This document shows, piece after piece, positions 4,001-11,731 of a DNA stretch of 44,845 nt. Under the pieces are notes generated by a model. That model was not told the origin of the DNA. It searched no databases and saw only the letters and a program-made list of their open reading frames with translations. Origin of the DNA: Gemmataceae bacterium (lineage in GTDB: Bacteria > Planctomycetota > Planctomycetia > Gemmatales > Gemmataceae). The stretch covers positions 1,080 to 45,924 of the forward strand of contig PLDW01000231.1 in assembly GCA_003136315.1 (NCBI GenBank), written 5' to 3'. Position numbers and translations under genes: made by a program. Within the stretch, counting starts at the first letter, position 1, and each line of letters begins with the position of its first letter.

Positions 4001-5500
4001 ATGCCGAATATCCAGCCCGCCACGACATCAGAGCCAGAGGTACGCCTGGACACGTTCCAGGGGACGGACGAACTCAACATCGCCGAATTTCCCCTCTCCA
4101 TTCTGGGCGAGCGGCCGGAGGGCGTGAAGACCCTCGAATTTTGCGACATGGTATTCGATAGCGGAGCTGGGAAAGAGGTTACCCGCAAGCTGACCATTAC
4201 CGGCTCCGATCTTTACGGCCTGCCCGGGCAGGCCGACGAAGACGTGCTCATGGTCATGATGTACCTGACCAATGTGGCAAAGTTCGAGAGCCGAACCGTC
4301 ACCTTCTCACGCCACCAACTGCTCAAACTGCTGAAATGGAGCGATAAGGGCCAGAACTATGAACGGCTGGAGGAATCGCTGCGCCGCTGGCTCGGCGTCA
4401 CCTTGTACTACGAGAATGCCTGGTGGGACAAAAAAGCCAAGGCATGGGTCGATCGCGACTTTCATATTCTCAGTAACATGATGATTTACGACCGCAAACG
4501 CCGCGGCGATCAGAGCGAGTTGCCCTTGTCATCCTTTACCTGGAACGAAGTCATTTTTGACAGCTTTCTGGCTCGAAACACCAAGGCTCTTGACCTTGAC
4601 GCCTATTTCAGCCTGAGCCTGGCCCCCGCCAAACGCATGTATCGCTTTCTCGACAAACGCTTCGGGGCGAAGCGGGGCACCACCTGGCGATTCGATCTGC
4701 GAGAGTTCGCCTGCGAGCATGTCGGCTTCAGCCGGAATTACGACTCTGCCCAGCTTAAGCGGAAGATGCAGCCGTCGCTTCTGGAGCTGGAGGAACAGGG
4801 GTTTCTTGAGCCGCTCCCGGATGAAAAACGCTATCCCAAAGGTGCTCGTCGCGGGCAGTGGTCCATCGTGGTATCCCAGGCGGTGAAGCGGATCGAGGAA
4901 CAATCCCAACCGGTGCTCGCCCTGCCCCCTGCTCCGTCTCCGTTGGAGGTGAAACTGATCGCCTGTGGTGTAACCGCGGTGGTGGCGGCCGAGTTGGTTG
5001 GGCAACATCCAGCCGAGCAGATCGAAACCAAGATGGATGTCCTGTCCTGGCTGATTGAACGCAAAGACAAGAAGGTCACCCGCAGCCCGGCCGGATACCT
5101 CGTGAAGTCGATCAAGGATGATTACGCTCTCCCGGCGGGCTATGTCCCGAAGGCCGAGCGGGAGAAGCGACAGCAGGTGGCTGAGGACAGGAAGCGTCAG
5201 CAGCAGGAAGCGGAACAGGTCCGCCGTCGCCAGGAAAAGGACGAACGCGCTGCCCAGCGAGCCGAGCGGACACATATCGACCGCTACTTGGGCACGCTGT
5301 CGACAGTCGAGCGGAAAGCCCTGGAGGAACGGGCGATCACCGCCGCCGAGCCGGACGAGCAGGAGCGGGCGAAGCCAGGGTTATTTGCCGAGATCATGCG
5401 GCGTTTGTTGGTGGACCGCCAGGTGCTCAAAGAGTGCCCGCTGGCTGCCAGCCAGAAAGAAACCGAGCGCCCACCTTCGTCAGGGTCGGTCATTTCGTGA
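4001..5500 (+). CDS. repA: Replication initiator protein A (RPA family)
   Basis: The 499-residue protein resembles the RPA-type plasmid initiators (replication initiator protein A, PF10134-like). An N-terminal LNIAEFPLSILGERP stretch and FCDMVFDSG lead into tandem winged-helix segments (DLYGLPGQADEDVLMVMM, SRHQLLKLLKWSDKGQNYERL, SSFTWNEVIFDSFLA, SPAKRMYRFLDKRFG-type region). A charged coiled C-terminus from about residue 360 is rich in Arg, Gln and Glu. It should bind the iterons upstream and open the AT-rich tract. The ATG at 4001 lies next to the AT-rich leader; the ribosome site is weak (GAGATAAGACG). An 18-bp palindrome sharing the iteron core lies inside the gene at 4217-4234. Confidence 0.88.
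   Translation: MPNIQPATTSEPEVRLDTFQGTDELNIAEFPLSILGERPEGVKTLEFCDMVFDSGAGKEVTRKLTITGSDLYGLPGQADEDVLMVMMYLTNVAKFESRTVTFSRHQLLKLLKWSDKGQNYERLEESLRRWLGVTLYYENAWWDKKAKAWVDRDFHILSNMMIYDRKRRGDQSELPLSSFTWNEVIFDSFLARNTKALDLDAYFSLSLAPAKRMYRFLDKRFGAKRGTTWRFDLREFACEHVGFSRNYDSAQLKRKMQPSLLELEEQGFLEPLPDEKRYPKGARRGQWSIVVSQAVKRIEEQSQPVLALPPAPSPLEVKLIACGVTAVVAAELVGQHPAEQIETKMDVLSWLIERKDKKVTRSPAGYLVKSIKDDYALPAGYVPKAEREKRQQVAEDRKRQQQEAEQVRRRQEKDERAAQRAERTHIDRYLGTLSTVERKALEERAITAAEPDEQERAKPGLFAEIMRRLLVDRQVLKECPLAASQKETERPPSSGSVIS
4217..4234. repeat. 18-bp perfect palindrome containing the iteron core, inside repA
   Basis: GGCCTGCCCGGGCAGGCC is its own reverse complement and contains CCGGGCAGG, the most conserved part of the iterons, in both directions. 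It encodes part of GLPGQA in RepA. It may be a coincidence of coding, or a dimer site for autoregulation. Confidence 0.3.
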
Positions 5501-5545: not shown

Positions 5546-5956
5546 TCACTCGCTCTTCGGACGGGTGTGGATGGTGGTGACCCGCGTCTCCTGACTCGGC
5601 ATGGCCGCGGCAACCAGTCGATCTTCTTCCTGAACCCACAACACCCTCTTCCGGACGATCCCGTCGAACAGCGGGCGAAGGTTTCGCCCCTCGATCGTCA
5701 CCACCAGTCGGTCGAAGTGCAGCGTGATCCCGACCGAAGGGTCGAAGTCGACCTGGGCGAGCCACCCGTAGTCGAGCGCTGTGGCGTTTCCGGTCTTCGC
5801 CCGCAACTCGATCATGGGCACGGATGGTCGGACCCCGCGGACGATTGCGTAAGCCTTGTGAGCCAGTACCTCCTCCTCGTCCACTTCGTCGATGCCCGGT
5901 TCCCGGTCCGCCGGTTGTACGGCGAGCCGGTCAAGAAAACTCCGCGTGTCGTCCAT
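5546..5956 (-). CDS. Conserved-looking protein of unknown function downstream of the relaxase
   Basis: A 136-residue product with no recognised motif. It has an acidic N-terminal part and a beta-rich middle (YGWLAQVDFDPSVGITLHFD, LVVTIEGRNLRPLFDGIV). The ATG at 5956 overlaps the end of the relaxase gene by 26 bases and follows GGAGAGTTT, a good ribosome site, so the two genes are very likely translationally coupled. Such coupling suggests a mobilisation accessory protein, but this is inference. It converges on repA, with 45 bases between the stops. Confidence 0.7.
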   Translation of the reverse strand: MDDTRSFLDRLAVQPADREPGIDEVDEEEVLAHKAYAIVRGVRPSVPMIELRAKTGNATALDYGWLAQVDFDPSVGITLHFDRLVVTIEGRNLRPLFDGIVRKRVLWVQEEDRLVAAAMPSQETRVTTIHTRPKSE

Positions 5957-8687
5957 AAACTCTCCTCTCAGGTTGGTGGTCTGCGTTGAGGTGGGTCCTC
6001 GATTGGTGCCACCACGGTCGGGTCAGAATCGCTGCGGCTTGACGGATTCGGTGACCGACCCGGCGCAGCAGATCCCGACGATGGCGGTCGTTGGGTCGAA
6101 TCGCTCGGGCGGCCAGTTCGCCGGCCGAGACGGGGCGATCGGAGCGGCCAATTGCCGTCCGCACCGCCGCTTTGTCATCCACATACAATCGAGCCCCGTG
6201 GCGACCCCGGGAAACTGCGACATAGAACTGCTCCCGTGATGCTGCTGGCCCACTCTCTTGGCTCTGACCGATCAGCACCCGGTCCACTGTTTTGCCCTGG
6301 CTGGCGACACTGGTCACCACAAATCCGTGGGCCAGGTGGCCGTAGCCGCGGTCAATCACCCACCCGTTGTCGAGGCGGATGTTGCCCTCGTCGGGGGTGA
6401 ACCCAGCGACGGTGTAGAGGCTGCCATTGTTCAGCCGGTGCCCGTCCTTTGACGTCCCGTTGTGGGTGATTCGGACTCGATCGCCGGCAACAAGTGGAAG
6501 GGTGTCTGCGCGATAGAGCTGGAACCGGCCCGCCAGGTTGAGCGGTAAGTCGCGCTCGGACCCGTCCGCAGCGCGGACCCGAACTCCATTCGCTCCCGCC
6601 GAGACGACGGTGAGCCGCTCCCCACGGCGGAATCCAGGAGCGTTCTGGCTGAATTGTGCCACGTCCCCAGGGGTGTACAGTTCCGCCCTGCCCTGCTCTG
6701 CCGTAGTGCGATGGAGCGGTACAAGGCGGTCGACATGATGTTCATTGCCGGTGAGTCGACCGGCCCCGCGCAGCGCGGTTCGGATGGCGGCCGTGATGCG
6801 GTCACCTTCCGCGTGGGTTGGAGCGACCGCCAACACGTGCTCTCCGGCGGCCGTGTGTCGGGTGTAATCCGCCGCCAAGGCCGCGCTGCGTGCCGCAGCA
6901 TCGGGGAGTTCCGTCACCCAGCCCATCGCGTTGAGCCGGTCGAACCCCTCGGTGGAGCGGCCGGCGGCCAAGTCCTCAACCGCCCGCTTGTAGCCGTCCC
7001 GCTGGCGCTGCACTTCTCGCAATTCGACGGCGGGTAACCCGGCCTGATCTTCGAGGATTCGCAGCGCTGCCCCGCGCTCGACCCCACGATGTTGAGACGT
7101 GTCTCCGACCAGAATCACCCGGGCGTTTTGGTTCCGAGCCAGGTCGAACACCGCGGCCAGGGTCCGGGTGCCGATGAGTCCAGCCTCGTCGATGAGCAGC
7201 ACTTGGTTCGCGATTGCAGCGTGCAATCGGTTGTCCAGGATGAGTCTGGCCACGGTGTCGGCGTCGGCAAAACCCTCTTGTCGGAGCACCCCGCGGCTGG
7301 CATCAGCGGTGGGGGCAAATGCGAACACTCGGTGGCCCCTCGCCTCGATCGCTTCGATGGCCTCTTTGAGCAGCGTGCTCTTCCCCACCCCGGCCTTGCC
7401 CCGGATTAGCATCACCTGGTCGGGTGATTCCAGCAGATGCTGCACCGCCCGGCGCTGACCGTCGTTCAGAAACTCGCGGCGGAATTCATGGGGGATCCCG
7501 CCGCCGAGTGGGTCACTGATGCCCCGCCCGGAACGGGCGAACGCCACCATCCGTTGTTCCTCGGCCAGTACCTCCGGGGTCGTCACCACGGTCCGCCCGC
7601 CAATGTCAGCGCGGATCACACCGTGGGCATTGAGGGCGGTTTTCACCTCGGCGGGTGTGACCGCCCCGACCCCGAATCGCAGTGCCTCAGCGAGGAGTTG
7701 CTTTTCGGGGACGACCGAGTCACGCACGAAACAATGCGCGATTGCGTATGCGGCGGCCTGGTCGGCCGTCCGTTCAGCCGGGACGGGAGCTGGTTGGCCC
7801 AGGGCGCTCGCCCGCAGCGCGGCCAGGGCGTCCCGATCAGCCGGAGCGAGACGGTCACGCCACACGGTCCGCAACTCCTCCGGGGAAAACTGGGTGGCCT
7901 TCCCTTCCCGTGTCCGCGCTCCGAGTTGATCGATCGCCGTGGGGTCGGTGATCCCCTTCTCCGCCGCCAGTTTTTCGATCTGGGTGGTGCGGCGGGAGAA
8001 CGCTCGAATGATCTGTGGCGAGACGCCGGCTACTTCCCACCCCTTGGCGGTGCGCTCGACCGGGTAGCCCAAGTCGGCCACACGCCGTGTCAGGTGACTG
8101 TGAAAAATCGCCTCGAAATACGGTGCGTCCCGTTTCAGATCGCGGAACTGACCGGCTTTGAACGACTGCTCGACCGGGTCGAATGTCGCGTTGAAGACGA
8201 CCGCATGGCAGTGCAGATGCGGGTCCGGAATTCCGTCGACCGGGCGGCTGGTGGTGTGGGTGTAGATCGCCCCGAGGAGATTCCCGGTCTCGCGTTCTTC
8301 GTCCCGGCCGCCGCGGCGAACCCGGGTCTTCATTTCGGCCTCGATCGCCATCATGGTGTCGCGGACGGCGGCTTCTACCGCCTCGCGGAGCCGATCGTCG
8401 CCGGTGATCGCGTACAGCGCCGACAGGCTTTTCGGCGGGTGGAAATTGAAGTCGTAAGCCACCGTTCGATCAGCCCGAGTGCGGGCGGTGAGCGCTGCGC
8501 CGGTAGCTGGGTTGCGGTTGTGGCACAAGGCATCGAAGTCGGTGTTCTCGACCTCGCCGCGCAATCCGAGCTGCTCGGCACCGCGGCCGAACCATACGCC
8601 TTGGGACTCCTCGGCGTAGTAGTCGGCGCTGGTGTAGTACGAACGAATCGCCTCGGTGCTGGTGTGTTGGTGAATGCGAAGCATCAC
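5931..8687 (-). CDS. MobF-type conjugative relaxase-helicase (TrwC/TraI family)
   Basis: A 918-residue protein with the MobF order of domains. The N-terminal relaxase has tyrosine pairs at YYTSADYY (17-24), the DFNFHPPKSLS motif (79-89) and the metal-binding histidines HLHCH (157-161). The C-terminal half is a superfamily 1 RecD/TraI-like helicase with Walker A GKAGVGKST near residue 435, Walker B LLIDEAGLI, LVGDTSQ and a final FYVAVSRGR motif. It should nick oriT, stay covalently bound to the transferred strand and unwind DNA. The start is GTG at 8687 or ATG at 8684, just after ACAGG. The gene is divergent from the first par operon, so oriT may lie in the 250 bases between them. One palindrome of the parS-like family sits within it (7212-7228). 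Confidence 0.93.
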   Translation of the reverse strand: MMLRIHQHTSTEAIRSYYTSADYYAEESQGVWFGRGAEQLGLRGEVENTDFDALCHNRNPATGAALTARTRADRTVAYDFNFHPPKSLSALYAITGDDRLREAVEAAVRDTMMAIEAEMKTRVRRGGRDEERETGNLLGAIYTHTTSRPVDGIPDPHLHCHAVVFNATFDPVEQSFKAGQFRDLKRDAPYFEAIFHSHLTRRVADLGYPVERTAKGWEVAGVSPQIIRAFSRRTTQIEKLAAEKGITDPTAIDQLGARTREGKATQFSPEELRTVWRDRLAPADRDALAALRASALGQPAPVPAERTADQAAAYAIAHCFVRDSVVPEKQLLAEALRFGVGAVTPAEVKTALNAHGVIRADIGGRTVVTTPEVLAEEQRMVAFARSGRGISDPLGGGIPHEFRREFLNDGQRRAVQHLLESPDQVMLIRGKAGVGKSTLLKEAIEAIEARGHRVFAFAPTADASRGVLRQEGFADADTVARLILDNRLHAAIANQVLLIDEAGLIGTRTLAAVFDLARNQNARVILVGDTSQHRGVERGAALRILEDQAGLPAVELREVQRQRDGYKRAVEDLAAGRSTEGFDRLNAMGWVTELPDAAARSAALAADYTRHTAAGEHVLAVAPTHAEGDRITAAIRTALRGAGRLTGNEHHVDRLVPLHRTTAEQGRAELYTPGDVAQFSQNAPGFRRGERLTVVSAGANGVRVRAADGSERDLPLNLAGRFQLYRADTLPLVAGDRVRITHNGTSKDGHRLNNGSLYTVAGFTPDEGNIRLDNGWVIDRGYGHLAHGFVVTSVASQGKTVDRVLIGQSQESGPAASREQFYVAVSRGRHGARLYVDDKAAVRTAIGRSDRPVSAGELAARAIRPNDRHRRDLLRRVGHRIRQAAAILTRPWWHQSRTHLNADHQPERRVYGRHAEFS
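7212..7228. promoter_or_regulatory. parS-like palindrome copy 1 (inside the relaxase gene)
   Basis: Seven-base perfect arms GATTGCA/TGCAATC around the centre GCG. It is the reverse-strand form of the other three copies, which have CGC at the centre. Confidence 0.6.
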
Positions 8688-8744
8688 CTGTTATTCGCCG
8701 ACGGTGGTTACTAATTGGTAAATAGTGGAGTTTCAGACATCTTC

Positions 8745-8761
8745 CCGATGCAGAGCATCGG
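8745..8761. other. Perfect short hairpin between relaxase and par genes, candidate oriT element
   Basis: CCGATGC AGA GCATCGG, with 7-bp arms and a 3-base loop, lies 58-61 bp upstream of the relaxase start. MobF relaxases often recognise a hairpin beside their nick site, and oriT is frequently next to the relaxase gene. No nick sequence can be named. It also directly abuts the first CCGG array, so it might instead belong to the partition site. Confidence 0.4.
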
Positions 8762-8763
8762 TG

Positions 8764-8831
8764 CCGGCGGGCCGGGAAGCCGGTCGTCCGGCGATCCGGG
8801 TTGCCGGTGAACCGCAGTGCCGTGCTTCCGG
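8764..8831 (+). repeat. Array of nine CCGG-type boxes at exact 8-bp spacing (candidate centromere)
   Basis: The tetramer CCGG occurs at 8764, 8772, 8780, 8788, 8796, 8804 and 8828, with CCGC at 8812 and CCGT at 8820 filling the register. This gives nine boxes separated by 4-base spacers of varying sequence. Ribbon-helix-helix centromere proteins such as ParG of TP228 bind tetramer boxes (ACTC there) with 4-bp spacers, the same geometry. The array lies upstream of a ParF-like gene that is followed by a ribbon-helix-helix gene, so it is most simply the centromere analogous to parH. Confidence 0.75.
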
Positions 8832-8878
8832 TCGGTGAGTTGGCTGACTGACAGCGTTTCACAAAATGGTTGCCCGAG

Positions 8879-8938
8879 CCGGCGGACCGTGCTACCGGGT
8901 TACCGGTGAATCGTAAACCCGTGCCGCCGGAGTCCCGG
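8879..8938 (+). promoter_or_regulatory. Second array of eight CCGG-type boxes, abutting the parA start (candidate operator)
   Basis: Boxes at 8-bp steps: CCGG 8879, CCGT 8887, CCGG 8895, CCGG 8903, TCGT 8911, CCGT 8919, CCGG 8927, CCGG 8935. The last box ends at the base before the ATG at 8939. It is out of register with the first array by 3 bp and separated from it by 47 bp. Its place over the promoter and ribosome site suggests autoregulation by the ribbon-helix-helix protein encoded downstream. Confidence 0.7.
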
Positions 8939-9574
8939 ATGATCGTGTCCTTCCTCAACCAAAAAGGCGGTGTCGGTAAGACGACGCTCGCTGTCAACGT
9001 GGCCGATGCCCTGGTCCGTCGCGGTCTCCGGGTTCTGGTGGTCGATGCCGATCCCCAGGGGTCCGCCCTTGACTGGGCCGCCGCGCGGGAGGGTGAGCCG
9101 CTGTTCCCGGTGGTCGGGCTGCCGCGGCCATCCATCCACAAGGATCTGCCGGCCATCGCCGCCGACTACGACGTGGTGGTGATCGACGGCCCTCCTCGGG
9201 TGTACGACGTGGCCCGCAGCGCCATCCTGGCCAGTGACCGGGTCTTGATCCCGGTCCAGCCGTCCCCGTATGACGTGTGGGCGGCCAAGGAGGTGGCCGA
9301 CCTGGTGGCCGAGGCGGCGGTGTACAAGCCGGACCTGATCGGGGCTGCCGCCTTCATCGTCAACAGGCGGATCGCCAACACTGCCATCGGCCGGGATGTG
9401 ACCGAGGCTCTGGCCGAGTACCCGATCCCGGTTCTGAAGGCGTCGGTGTGCCAGCGGGTGGCGTTTGCCGAGAGTGCGACCCACGGACGGACAGTGTTCG
9501 AGCAGGACCCGGACGGATCAGCCGCCCGTGAGGTGCTGGCGGTCGTCGCTGAAGTGTTCGGGGAGGTGGCGTGA
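8939..9574 (+). CDS. parF: ParA-type partition ATPase, short ParF-like class (type Ib)
   Basis: The product is a 211-residue deviant-Walker ATPase. It starts directly with MIVSFLNQKGGVGKTT (signature lysine and Walker A), followed by VVDADPQGSALDW and VVIDGPP, and has no N-terminal DNA-binding extension. That size and architecture match ParF/type Ib proteins, which polymerise or pattern on the nucleoid to move plasmids. The frame is open upstream to 8870, but ATG 8939 is preferred because the family starts there and GGAG precedes it. The stop overlaps the next start by four bases. The symbol is by type, not by proven orthology. Confidence 0.88.
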   Translation: MIVSFLNQKGGVGKTTLAVNVADALVRRGLRVLVVDADPQGSALDWAAAREGEPLFPVVGLPRPSIHKDLPAIAADYDVVVIDGPPRVYDVARSAILASDRVLIPVQPSPYDVWAAKEVADLVAEAAVYKPDLIGAAAFIVNRRIANTAIGRDVTEALAEYPIPVLKASVCQRVAFAESATHGRTVFEQDPDGSAAREVLAVVAEVFGEVA

Positions 9575-9810
9575 AGAAGGTTGGTTTCCGTGGCAAGCCG
9601 CCGACCGGAGCGCCCCCGTTGGCCGATGCCTGGGTGGCCGACCGGGAACAACCACCCGCGCCGTCTGAGCCGACCCGGCGGTTCACGTTCGATGTGCCGG
9701 TGCCGCTCCACCGGCGGATCAAGGCGGCGTGTGTACAGCAGGACCGGAATATGGCCGACGTGATCCGCCAGCTGCTGGAGAAAGCCTTCCCGCCGGAACC
9801 ACAGAACTGA
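9571..9810 (+). CDS. parG: Ribbon-helix-helix centromere-binding protein, ParG-like
   Basis: A 79-residue product: a flexible, proline-rich N-terminal half followed by a ribbon-helix-helix fold (RRFTFDVPVPLHRRIKAACV, then NMADVIRQLLEKAF). The same layout is found in ParG, whose mobile N-terminus stimulates ParF and whose fold binds tetramer boxes. It starts with GTG at 9571, inside GTGA that also ends the ATPase gene, so the two are translationally coupled. The predicted targets are the CCGG-box arrays upstream of the ATPase gene. Confidence 0.82.
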   Translation: MKKVGFRGKPPTGAPPLADAWVADREQPPAPSEPTRRFTFDVPVPLHRRIKAACVQQDRNMADVIRQLLEKAFPPEPQN

Positions 9811-9870
9811 TCGCGTCGATCAAGGGCGCAGGCGGGGTTGTCCGGTGCGACTTTGACGCCAGGGCAGGGC

Positions 9871-9887
9871 GATTGCACGCTGCAATC
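9871..9887. promoter_or_regulatory. parS-like palindrome copy 2
   Basis: GATTGCACGCTGCAATC, perfect 7-bp arms around CGC, in the gene-free 278 bases between the two par operons. It lies 147 bp before the next copy, close to a whole number of helical turns. A half site (GATTGCA) occurs at 9952-9958 between them. Confidence 0.7.
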
Positions 9888-10017
9888 GGAGGCCGTCCGG
9901 CCTTCGCTTCTGTGCCACCCGATCATCTTGCCCGGGTCGCTTGCAAGGCCCGATTGCACTTCTCACCGTCATCGTTCCGTCAGGCGTAACACCCGCCGGA
10001 AAAATCAAATACGGCCC

Positions 10018-10034
10018 GATTGCACGCTGCAATC
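10018..10034. promoter_or_regulatory. parS-like palindrome copy 3
   Basis: The same 17-bp palindrome, 55 bp upstream of the second parA start and overlapping an upstream ATG at 10020. Its position suggests both a ParB-binding site and an operator for the parAB operon. Confidence 0.7.
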
Positions 10035-10088
10035 GCTGGCCAGAGTGCCGATTTCGAGGAAGGCGGACACCACTTATGGAGACCCTTG

Positions 10089-10910
10089 ATGCCACCGCTG
10101 ACAATCTGCGTGATGAGTAGGAAGGGGGGTACAGGGAAGACAACCAATGCACTGAACCTGGCCGGGTCGTTTGTGAACGACGGCCTGCGTGTGGCCTGCC
10201 TCGACCTCGATGGTCAGGGCAGCCTCAGCCGTTGTCTGCTTGGCCCCGCCCGTGTCGAGTCGATGCACCCGGCCAACACCACGGCGGGGTTATTCGACCC
10301 GAAATATGATCCGACTCCCGATGACCTGATTCAACCGACCCGGTTCGACCGGCTGTTTGTCGTCCCGTCGAGTGACGCGCTGGAGACGTTCAACCGCCCC
10401 AGCCCGGCGGAGGCCGGGGAGGCGCAGTTCGTCATCCGCCGATTCCTGGACGAGGCGGCGAACCGGATCGACCTGGCGGTGATCGACACCGGACCGAACA
10501 CGAGCGGACTGCTCGGGTGGGCAGCGCTGGCGGCCAGTGACTTCGTTCTCACCCCGATTCTCCCCGACCCGTTTGGATCGCACGCCATCATCCACGTCCA
10601 GCGCCTGGTGGAGGAGTCGCAGGTCAAGGTGAACCCAAAACTGCGGATCGCCGGCTACCTGCTCAACATGGTTCAGAAGAACGCCGTGCAGCAAGCCTAC
10701 GAGCAGACCTTGCGGCAGATTCACGGCGGCCAGGTGTTCACTACCGTAGTGCCGCTCCTGGCCCCGTACCGGGAAGCCATCGCCGAACGTGCGCCCGTGA
10801 CCCTGCTCAAGCCCAAGGTGAAAGCGTCCAAGGTGGTCAAGGCGGTGGCCGAGGAGCTGGAGGCCCGGATCACCGCCGCGATCGGCACCACGAAGAAGGA
10901 GGTGGCGTGA
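10089..10910 (+). CDS. parA: ParA-type partition ATPase of the second module
   Basis: A 273-residue ATPase with ICVMSRKGGTGKTTN (deviant Walker A), CLDLDGQGSLSRCL and LAVIDTGPN (Walker B region). It is longer than the first ATPase and clearly diverged from it. ATG 10089 follows GGAG by 7 bases and starts the conserved fold. The earlier ATG at 10020 would add residues translated from the palindrome and is less likely. The gene ends within TGATG shared with parB, so the two are coupled. It should move plasmid copies together with ParB bound at the palindromes. Confidence 0.87.
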   Translation: MPPLTICVMSRKGGTGKTTNALNLAGSFVNDGLRVACLDLDGQGSLSRCLLGPARVESMHPANTTAGLFDPKYDPTPDDLIQPTRFDRLFVVPSSDALETFNRPSPAEAGEAQFVIRRFLDEAANRIDLAVIDTGPNTSGLLGWAALAASDFVLTPILPDPFGSHAIIHVQRLVEESQVKVNPKLRIAGYLLNMVQKNAVQQAYEQTLRQIHGGQVFTTVVPLLAPYREAIAERAPVTLLKPKVKASKVVKAVAEELEARITAAIGTTKKEVA

Positions 10911-11731
10911 TGAGCGGCAAGCTGCAAGACTTCCTGACCCGCAACCAGCAGAACCTCCGCGAGGACGCCGGCGAGCGACCAGCGGGCAACGCTCCTCCGG
11001 CGGTCAGCAAACTCGATGGCCGAACCCGGATGCAGAACGCGGCGGCGATCGCCGTCGATCGGATCGTTGCGGATGCCCAGACCCGCGAGGCGTTCGACGA
11101 GGACGAACTGAAGCGGCTGGCCGACTCGATCCGCCAGGACGGGCAGCTCCAACCGATCCTGGTCCGGTACGATGAGGGCAGGGCGGTCTATGTCATCGTC
11201 GCGGGCGAGCGTCGGTGGCGAGCTTGTAAGCTGGCCGGTCTGCCCACCGTGAACGCGGTTGTCGTCGAGAAGACGATGACCGAGGCCGAAATACTGAACG
11301 TCCAGATACTAGAGAACGCTCTTCGCCAGGATCTCCGTCCGGTCGAGCAGGCCAAAGCCTTCGCCAAGGCGATGCAGATGAACGGGTGGGACGGCAAGAC
11401 CCTGGCCGAGCAACTCCACATCAACCCGAGTACGGTCAGCCGGTCGCTCGCTCTACTCAAGTTGCCCGAGGACATGCAGAGGCGGGTGGACGTGGGCGAG
11501 GTGCCGCCGACCGTGGCAATCAAGCAGGTGACGAAAGAGACCGGCCGGCGCACCGGAAACACGGCGAGCCGGAAATCCGGGAAGCCGGCCAAGGAGCATA
11601 CGCTTCGTCTTGCCGGCGGAGTAACGGTGATCGTGAAGGGTCGTCGGGCGCTGTCCGACGAAGAGGTGGCTGCGGCTCTGGAAGAGGCGCTGCGGGGGAT
11701 TCGCGGCGATATGGGCAAATCCGCCGCGTGA
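10910..11731 (+). CDS. parB: ParB/Spo0J-type centromere-binding protein
   Basis: About 273 residues. There is a ParB/sulfiredoxin-like CTPase domain with VIVAGERRWRACKLAGL (box II arginine motif) and LENALRQDLRPVEQAKAF, a helix-turn-helix (KTLAEQLHINPSTVSRSLALLKLP), and a small C-terminal part with an acidic helix. The start is ATG 10910, overlapping the parA stop by one base; GTG 10907 in the same frame is the alternative. The 17-bp palindrome family is the obvious candidate for its parS. It converges on the WD40 kinase gene across 83 bases that contain no strong terminator. Confidence 0.9.
   Translation: MSGKLQDFLTRNQQNLREDAGERPAGNAPPAVSKLDGRTRMQNAAAIAVDRIVADAQTREAFDEDELKRLADSIRQDGQLQPILVRYDEGRAVYVIVAGERRWRACKLAGLPTVNAVVVEKTMTEAEILNVQILENALRQDLRPVEQAKAFAKAMQMNGWDGKTLAEQLHINPSTVSRSLALLKLPEDMQRRVDVGEVPPTVAIKQVTKETGRRTGNTASRKSGKPAKEHTLRLAGGVTVIVKGRRALSDEEVAAALEEALRGIRGDMGKSAA

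Follow-up and report, generated by a model that had tools for sequence, protein, structure and literature searches.

In the type Ib partition system parFGH of plasmid TP228 the boxes have the sequence ACTC, and in Agrobacterium the overdrive proteins VirC1 and VirC2, a ParA-like ATPase and a ribbon-helix-helix (RHH) protein, act beside the transfer origin. For TP228, two reports describe degenerate tetramer boxes with AT-rich spacers and a stretch upstream of the operon that is both centromere and operator (PMC7308502, PMC5016525). For the RHH protein of pSM19035, ParA activation is reported to require four or more contiguous repeats (PMC9499535). On plasmid R388, StbA is reported to be required for stability and StbB for transfer (PMC3098194), and the TrwC site to consist of a hairpin and nine bases, with a nick before a purine (PMC4176350). 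Here we describe two box arrays in a window (the whole stretch of DNA analysed, 44,845 nucleotides) of a Gemmataceae genome, and compare them with these systems.

Two box arrays between a relaxase gene and a parA gene

The features of the window considered here are the following:

4001 to 5500, plus strand: replication initiator gene (RPA family), 499 aa (PF10134, 58 bits)
5931 to 8687, minus strand: MobF (TrwC/TraI-type) relaxase-helicase gene, 918 aa (PF08751, 224 bits; NF041492, 195 bits, cut-off 100)
8764 to 8831, no strand: array 1, nine boxes with an exact 8-bp period; proposed centromere (parH-like)
8832 to 8878, plus strand: inter-array gap, 47 bp, where the par promoter would be expected
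8879 to 8938, no strand: array 2, eight boxes with an exact 8-bp period; proposed operator
8939 to 9574, plus strand: parA gene (ParF type), 211 aa (NF041546, 278.6 bits; ParF 4dzz, E = 8e-30)
9571 to 9810, plus strand: parG-like RHH gene, 79 aa (PF09274, 23.0 bits; predicted strand RRFTFDV)
9869 to 10041, no strand: palindromic repeats CGATTGCACGCTGCAATCG in two copies, with shared GGCCCGATTGCAC at 9947, upstream of ParA2-ParB2
10089 to 11731, plus strand: second partition pair, ParA2 (10089-10910) and HTH-type ParB2 (10907-11731)

The boxes of array 1, at 8764, 8772 and so on to 8828, read CCGG six times, then CCGC, CCGT and CCGG, and those of array 2 read CCGG, CCGT, CCGG, CCGG, TCGT, CCGT, CCGG and CCGG. 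Together they comprise 12 CCGG, three CCGT, one CCGC and one TCGT, and the CG stands in the identical position in 17 of 17 boxes, giving gap-free CG chains of nine and eight. The arrays are mutually out of phase by 3 bp and are diverged copies of each other, with 70% identity over 54 nt. The parA ATG at 8939 follows immediately 3' of the last box of array 2, and a possible ninth box of this array, an in-register TCGT at 8943, falls within parA codons 2-3. The first-pass annotation of this DNA had described 17 boxes with 11 or 12 perfect CCGG, in two 8-bp registers, the second terminating at the parA start codon, with spacers that are not AT-rich; our count agrees with each of these points, with 12 exact CCGG, gap-free registers beyond shuffled controls, a last box that abuts the ATG and spacers of 48% AT.

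When the period was left free between 5 and 24, seven in-register CCGG were observed in 10 slots, whereas dinucleotide shuffling of the 400-bp region, repeated 500 times, gave four at most. Shuffling the whole window 300 times gave gap-free 8-bp CG chains of up to 7, a length reached once, against the 9 and 8 observed, and gap-free 8-bp CCGG chains of up to 3, against 6 observed. On a general 8-bp periodicity score calculated window-wide, the arrays take ranks 1 and 3, rank 2 being a site at 1227. Both arrays are thus confirmed as a non-random, real feature. The region around 1227 also shows a strong short-period signal, at several periods. No match to the sigma-70 consensus was found in the inter-array gap (8832-8878).

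The relaxase gene, which starts at 8687 on the minus strand, is divergent from parA, and both arrays lie between the two. ParA is a short Walker-type ATPase without N-terminal HTH domain; it matches NF041546, "ParA family partition ATPase", over residues 2-205 (cut-off 180 bits), and ParF (4dzz), to which it aligns over residues 2-206, is the nearest solved structure. Its score with the VirC1 Pfam family is below cut-off (23.5 against 24 bits). The 79-aa RHH protein stands narrowly above the Pfam ParG cut-off (23.0 against 21.4 bits) and is weakly similar to TP228 ParG (phmmer E = 0.03). Its AlphaFold model is confident for two helices, at 44-56 and 61-72. In TP228 an arginine-finger-like residue lies in a flexible N-terminal tail; here residues 1-30 have low model confidence (pLDDT 60-68 per block of ten), and the N-terminal start, KKVxFGxxP, includes basic residues. 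The strand RRFTFDV, expected before the first helix, aligns with KRVNVNF of TP228, and the monomer model shows no strand there. When the PDB was searched with this model, the first match was TP228 ParG (1p94) with a non-significant E-value of 0.19, followed mostly by other RHH proteins (MatP, Arc, CopG), all with non-significant E-values. Both gene families score above their curated cut-offs, and the arrays lie upstream of a ParF-like ATPase gene and an RHH gene, as annotated initially. Two partition systems, the ParF-ParG-type one and ParA2-ParB2, adjoin each other in the window, and the CGATTGCACGCTGCAATCG repeats at 9869-10041 are a candidate parS of the latter.

The 8-bp register and the box type in related loci

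Relatives of parA were collected from planctomycete genomes, a genome collection (best 80 of 583), viral contigs (best 80 of 502) and named plasmids. Up to 400 bp 5' of parA were submitted to a period-blind scan in 184 loci of 195 (189 oriented), with a threshold of z > 4.5; the planctomycete loci L003, L018, L021, L023 and L035 (no usable parA match), L239 (no parA annotated in the stretch) and L299 were left out before the counts. Some places being counted twice, the commonest top period was 8 (31 loci), then 4 (17), 3, the codon period (10), and 6 (three), with five others once each and none at z > 4.5 in 118 loci. As a positive control, a TP228-type plasmid was included, and the same scan recovers its ACTC array (z8 = 6.4, ACTCA units).

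The annotation had also proposed to scan related planctomycete plasmids for the 8-bp register, and the outcome is mostly positive. Among the 17 planctomycete relatives with a usable ParF-type match, window excluded, the register is clear (z8 > 4.5) in nine (L002, L010, L011, L012, L014, L017, L024, L028, L032; L014 and L017 are near-copies within one genome) and weak or absent in eight (L009, L013, L015, L016, L019, L020, L027, L034), among them the close relatives L009 (74% ParA identity) and L027 (72%). At L002/L196 (own genome contig C501) parA has an internal stop and the relaxase match is split, and the array is still clear (z8 = 8.5). Six of the nine clear-array relatives are CG-type (L010, L011, L012, L024, L028, L032) and L014 is not, L017 being left out as a duplicate and L002 as having no RHH match. 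Clear-array relatives usually carry other CG-centred boxes than CCGG; their ACGA and TCGT boxes are mutual reverse complements, which fits mixed box orientations.

In the whole set, z8 exceeds 4.5 in 40/154 loci with an RHH partner (duplicates included) and in 10/30 without one by profile; these 10 are five sister loci with another RHH-like gene, one broken parA, L068, L098, L139 and L191. The ICE-like group, with the strand ARLT, has RHH partners and few 8-bp arrays (L077 reaches z8 = 5.0; most are < 3), and pooling its CG distances gives an excess at 8 and likewise at 12, 16 and 23. The sister loci L004-L008 lie on contigs C68, C503, C174, C384 and C97 of the same genome as the window; their ParA is only ~30% identical and their partner is a different, RHH-like protein of 112-123 aa, two of which were scanned without giving a Pfam match above cut-off. 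The 400 bp upstream of their parA show a 4-bp period (z 13-19); CNNG tetramers occupy 31-52% of ~100 slots when read in one phase, and no more than 6% when read in any other. These sister arrays are perhaps more striking than those of the window.

To relate box and protein, the loci were made non-redundant (171 to 131) and typed by the residue at the fourth strand position, the Thr type being confined to strands with R or K in second position, ARLT strands excluded. CG-CG distances in 47 non-redundant Thr-type loci peak at 8, 16, 24 and 32 bp (186, 171, 159 and 140), against 44-85 at the remaining distances from 4 to 33. The corresponding ACTC/GAGT distances in 23 Asn-type loci number 16, 12, 8 and 5, against at most 4 at the others. 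Under fixed thresholds, the Thr loci include 16 of CG type and none of ACTC type, and the Asn loci five of ACTC type and none of CG type, with no call in 49/70 loci (31/47 Thr-type, 18/23 Asn-type); the association gives a Fisher p = 5e-5 with shared ancestry ignored. The TP228-type plasmid (Asn) conforms to the rule. A preset test on the nine eligible of 14 new pairs (ineligible: L303, L310-L313) gave two agreements (L300, CG; L309, ACTC), no conflict and seven no-calls. L309, an Aeromonas plasmid with an Asn-type ParG gene, has a near-perfect GAGT run every 8 bp 5' of parA (18 such pairs/300 bp). In an unplanned later count, ACTC/GAGT occurred 2-11 times per 150 bp in six new Asn-type loci, and 0.56 times on average (max 3) in 50 Thr-type loci, three of them new. 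Viewed by eye, the Thr-type loci L041 (TAAT units) and L231 (TGTAA units) are exceptions, and L137 (Asn) has no ACTC. These counts suggest that box type tracks one RHH strand residue (Thr39 in the protein of the window), Thr going with CG-centred boxes and Asn with ACTC. For a residue that would separate CCGG from ACGA, the two or three loci at hand (L013, L131, window) lead us to make no claim.

The oriT-like element beside array 1

Directly left of array 1 lies a further feature:

8734 to 8761, minus strand: oriT/nic candidate, hairpin arms 8745-8751 and 8755-8761, then GAAGATGTCT and, past the predicted nick, G

On the plus strand, CAGACATCTTCCC is followed by the hairpin (8745-8761), and array 1 begins 2 bases past it. 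On the minus strand the hairpin is followed by ten bases, the last five of which are TGTCT, and then by a purine; the nic region of R388 likewise ends in TGTCT, and by analogy with this plasmid the nick is predicted between 8735 and 8734 of the minus strand. The hairpin folds better than 199/200 shuffles. An alignment of 17 copies shows 89% pairing in the stem and three pairs with both sides changed, two copies with a six-pair stem shifted by one base being scored mostly unpaired; none of 500 shuffles matches the paired percentage or the covariation score, and 17 match the three covarying pairs.

A pattern search of the own genome, with one mismatch allowed, gave 11 matches, nine of them convincing by eye, against three for the reversed-pattern control. 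Eight of these nine are upstream of a parA gene; a copy at L223 (contig C516) has no parA or relaxase match in the surrounding 3 kb. The element is found 5' of parA in the same orientation in 15/25 planctomycete places (15/20, plus none in L014-L017 and L020), nine of them ParG-type, counting the window, and six from the sister family; at these 15 a relaxase gene lies directly beyond the element in eight, further away in four and was not found on the stretch in three. Of the 17 ParF-type relatives, the element is present in 7/9 that show a clear array and in 1/8 that do not (Fisher p = 0.015, ancestry ignored). At least two separate CG chains are present in four of the nine element-bearing loci (window, L002, L012, L024). 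Loci without the element (L013, L015, L016, L019) mostly have no clear array, against the element-linked L010, L011, L024 and L028; in L014 and L017 the element is absent from the available 516-522 bp 5' of parA. Several element-less planctomycete loci sit on contigs of very large size, possibly as integrated copies. In planctomycetes, the oriT-like element accompanies clear arrays as much as the RHH gene does.

Interpretation of the arrays and known systems

Taken together, gene families above their cut-offs, arrays beyond chance and the register in about half of the planctomycete relatives and in distant plasmids support the type Ib centromere and operator candidate of the first-pass annotation, and we give a probability of roughly 0.78 to the reading in which the arrays belong to a type Ib ParF-ParG module, with array 1 as centromere and array 2 as operator. 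The arrays would be the DNA sites of the 79-residue ParG-type RHH protein, each dimer placing its two-stranded sheet in the major groove at one CG-centred box, and dimers at 8-bp steps would cover each array with an unbroken filament. The box CCGG is palindromic, so a symmetric dimer would read it alike from either side. Lying between the promoter expected in the gap and the start of parA, array 2 would be the operator for ParG repression of parFG; array 1, upstream of that promoter, would be the centromere, on which the ParG filament would recruit and activate ParF-ATP on the nucleoid. Binding, promoter, repression, segregation and the separate tasks of the two arrays are all inferred. Against the type Ib reading we count the 8/17 relatives without clear register, the equally close link of planctomycete arrays to the oriT-like element, the few arrays of the ARLT group, the 40/154 and 10/30 loci above threshold with and without a profile-matched RHH partner, and the lack of a sigma-70 match in the gap. 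As the plasmid already carries ParA2-ParB2, its segregation may not depend mainly on the ParF-ParG module, and since this module lies against a candidate oriT, a second effect on transfer is plausible.

An alternative that we regard as possible, if tentative, is that the RHH protein on array 1 acts on oriT, as TrwA, TraY and StbA do, and that ParF positions the plasmid for transfer, as VirC1 and StbB do, segregation being left to ParA2-ParB2, which the window carries itself. The 2-bp distance between hairpin and array 1 is in agreement with such a relaxosome or mode switch, and so are the recurrence of the element 5' of parA with both ParG-type and second RHH-like partners and its association with clear arrays given above. 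Partition proteins are reported to stimulate transfer of R1 (PMC4949242) and NAH7 (PMC12421886), gonococcal ones do so via relaxase interaction (PMC8716806), and R388 divides stability and transfer between StbA and StbB (PMC3098194). However, ParA-RHH genes with 8-bp arrays also occur on plasmids typed non-mobilizable (L235, L309), and L014 and L017 have arrays without the element in the stretch available. The transfer role and the type Ib module are not mutually exclusive. A restricted role, in which the arrays only control the divergent relaxase and parFG promoters with no centromere function, would account for their position between divergent genes and for the contact of array 2 with the parA start, but eight and nine contiguous sites would exceed an operator's need, and the upstream stretch of TP228 doubles as centromere plus operator (PMC7308502, PMC5016525); we hold this restricted role to be improbable.

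It is very improbable that the arrays are iterons for the replication initiator or the product of a simple-sequence expansion. CCGG runs with varied spacers do sit between a Rep homologue and a parA gene in genome G090, and most 8-bp CCGG runs of viral contigs are plain tandem repeats, but the Rep gene of the window ends 3.3 kb away; we reject both explanations because the spacers vary among the units of the window arrays and the same register is seen with other box sequences beside other parA-RHH genes. A blind search for five CCGG at 8 bp matched 6/397 planctomycete genomes, three with plain tandem repeats (G175, G331, G386) and three with varied spacers (window, G090, G301). G090 and G301, the latter viewed over 1.5 kb only, have their runs near a parA gene; they were not counted as the same system, because this ParA is 27% identical to ParA2 and G090 (L297, 3921-4540) has a 214-aa partner and scattered CCGG-N4-CCGG pairs between Rep and parA. 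The same search matched 47 stretches of viral contigs, five with at least three distinct spacers, and none of the 47 matched the six window or sister proteins used as queries. Given these other runs in genomes and viral contigs, CCGG runs alone are not diagnostic.

A broader proposal, which we consider doubtful, is that planctomycete elements have a fused segregation-and-transfer site: an RHH filament beside the oriT hairpin, in 8-bp register or, in the second RHH-like family, 4-bp, would switch the element between segregation by ParA and nicking by the relaxase, in the manner of R388 stb, and the strand code (Thr CG-centred, Asn ACTC) would set the box, so that centromere identity shifts by single residues with the register fixed. 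RHH protein recognition of, and divergence from, each other's centromeres bears on plasmid incompatibility, and an invariant 8-bp register, combined across phyla with a box that follows a strand residue, offers a direct test of RHH DNA choice. Arrays repeatedly found between an oriT candidate and parA add to the few cases in which segregation and conjugation share components (R388 stb, R1, NAH7), and the elements mark oriT and centromere candidates in Planctomycetota. We found no description of planctomycete arrays, oriT and centromere candidates of this sort in the open-licence literature, most subscription journals being outside the search.

Regarding Agrobacterium overdrive, we know of no 8-bp array there. 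The candidate oriT resembles the MobF type of R388 in its inverted repeat, predicted nick before a purine and adjoining MobF relaxase gene, with ten bases from arm to predicted nick here against nine there. TP228 parFGH is alike in having a small ParA ATPase gene then an RHH gene, with upstream tetramer boxes, and an upstream array plus sites adjoining the ATPase gene (PMC7308502, PMC5016525). The ACTC of the TP228-type plasmid is in the same 8-bp register, whereas the boxes here are CG-centred (CCGG, CCGT, CCGC, TCGT), the spacers are 48% AT instead of AT-rich, and array 1 abuts a candidate oriT. In pSM19035 omega/parS an RHH protein on contiguous short repeats activates a ParA (PMC9499535); the repeats there are 7-bp heptads, in contrast to the 8-bp register here, and arrays of nine and eight exceed the minimum of four given for that system. 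For the placement, the closest functional parallel is R388 stb, whose repeat sets beside oriT serve stability and transfer: two operons diverge from oriT, one with mobility genes and the other encoding a DNA-binding protein and a ParA-like ATPase, and two direct-repeat sets (stbDRs) lie around the promoter (PMC3098194). The StbA repeats are 9 bp spaced by 2, unlike the 8-bp register, and stbA comes first, whereas parA does here. Relative to these systems, what is new here is the CG-centred box, the GC-rich make-up and the position beside an oriT candidate.
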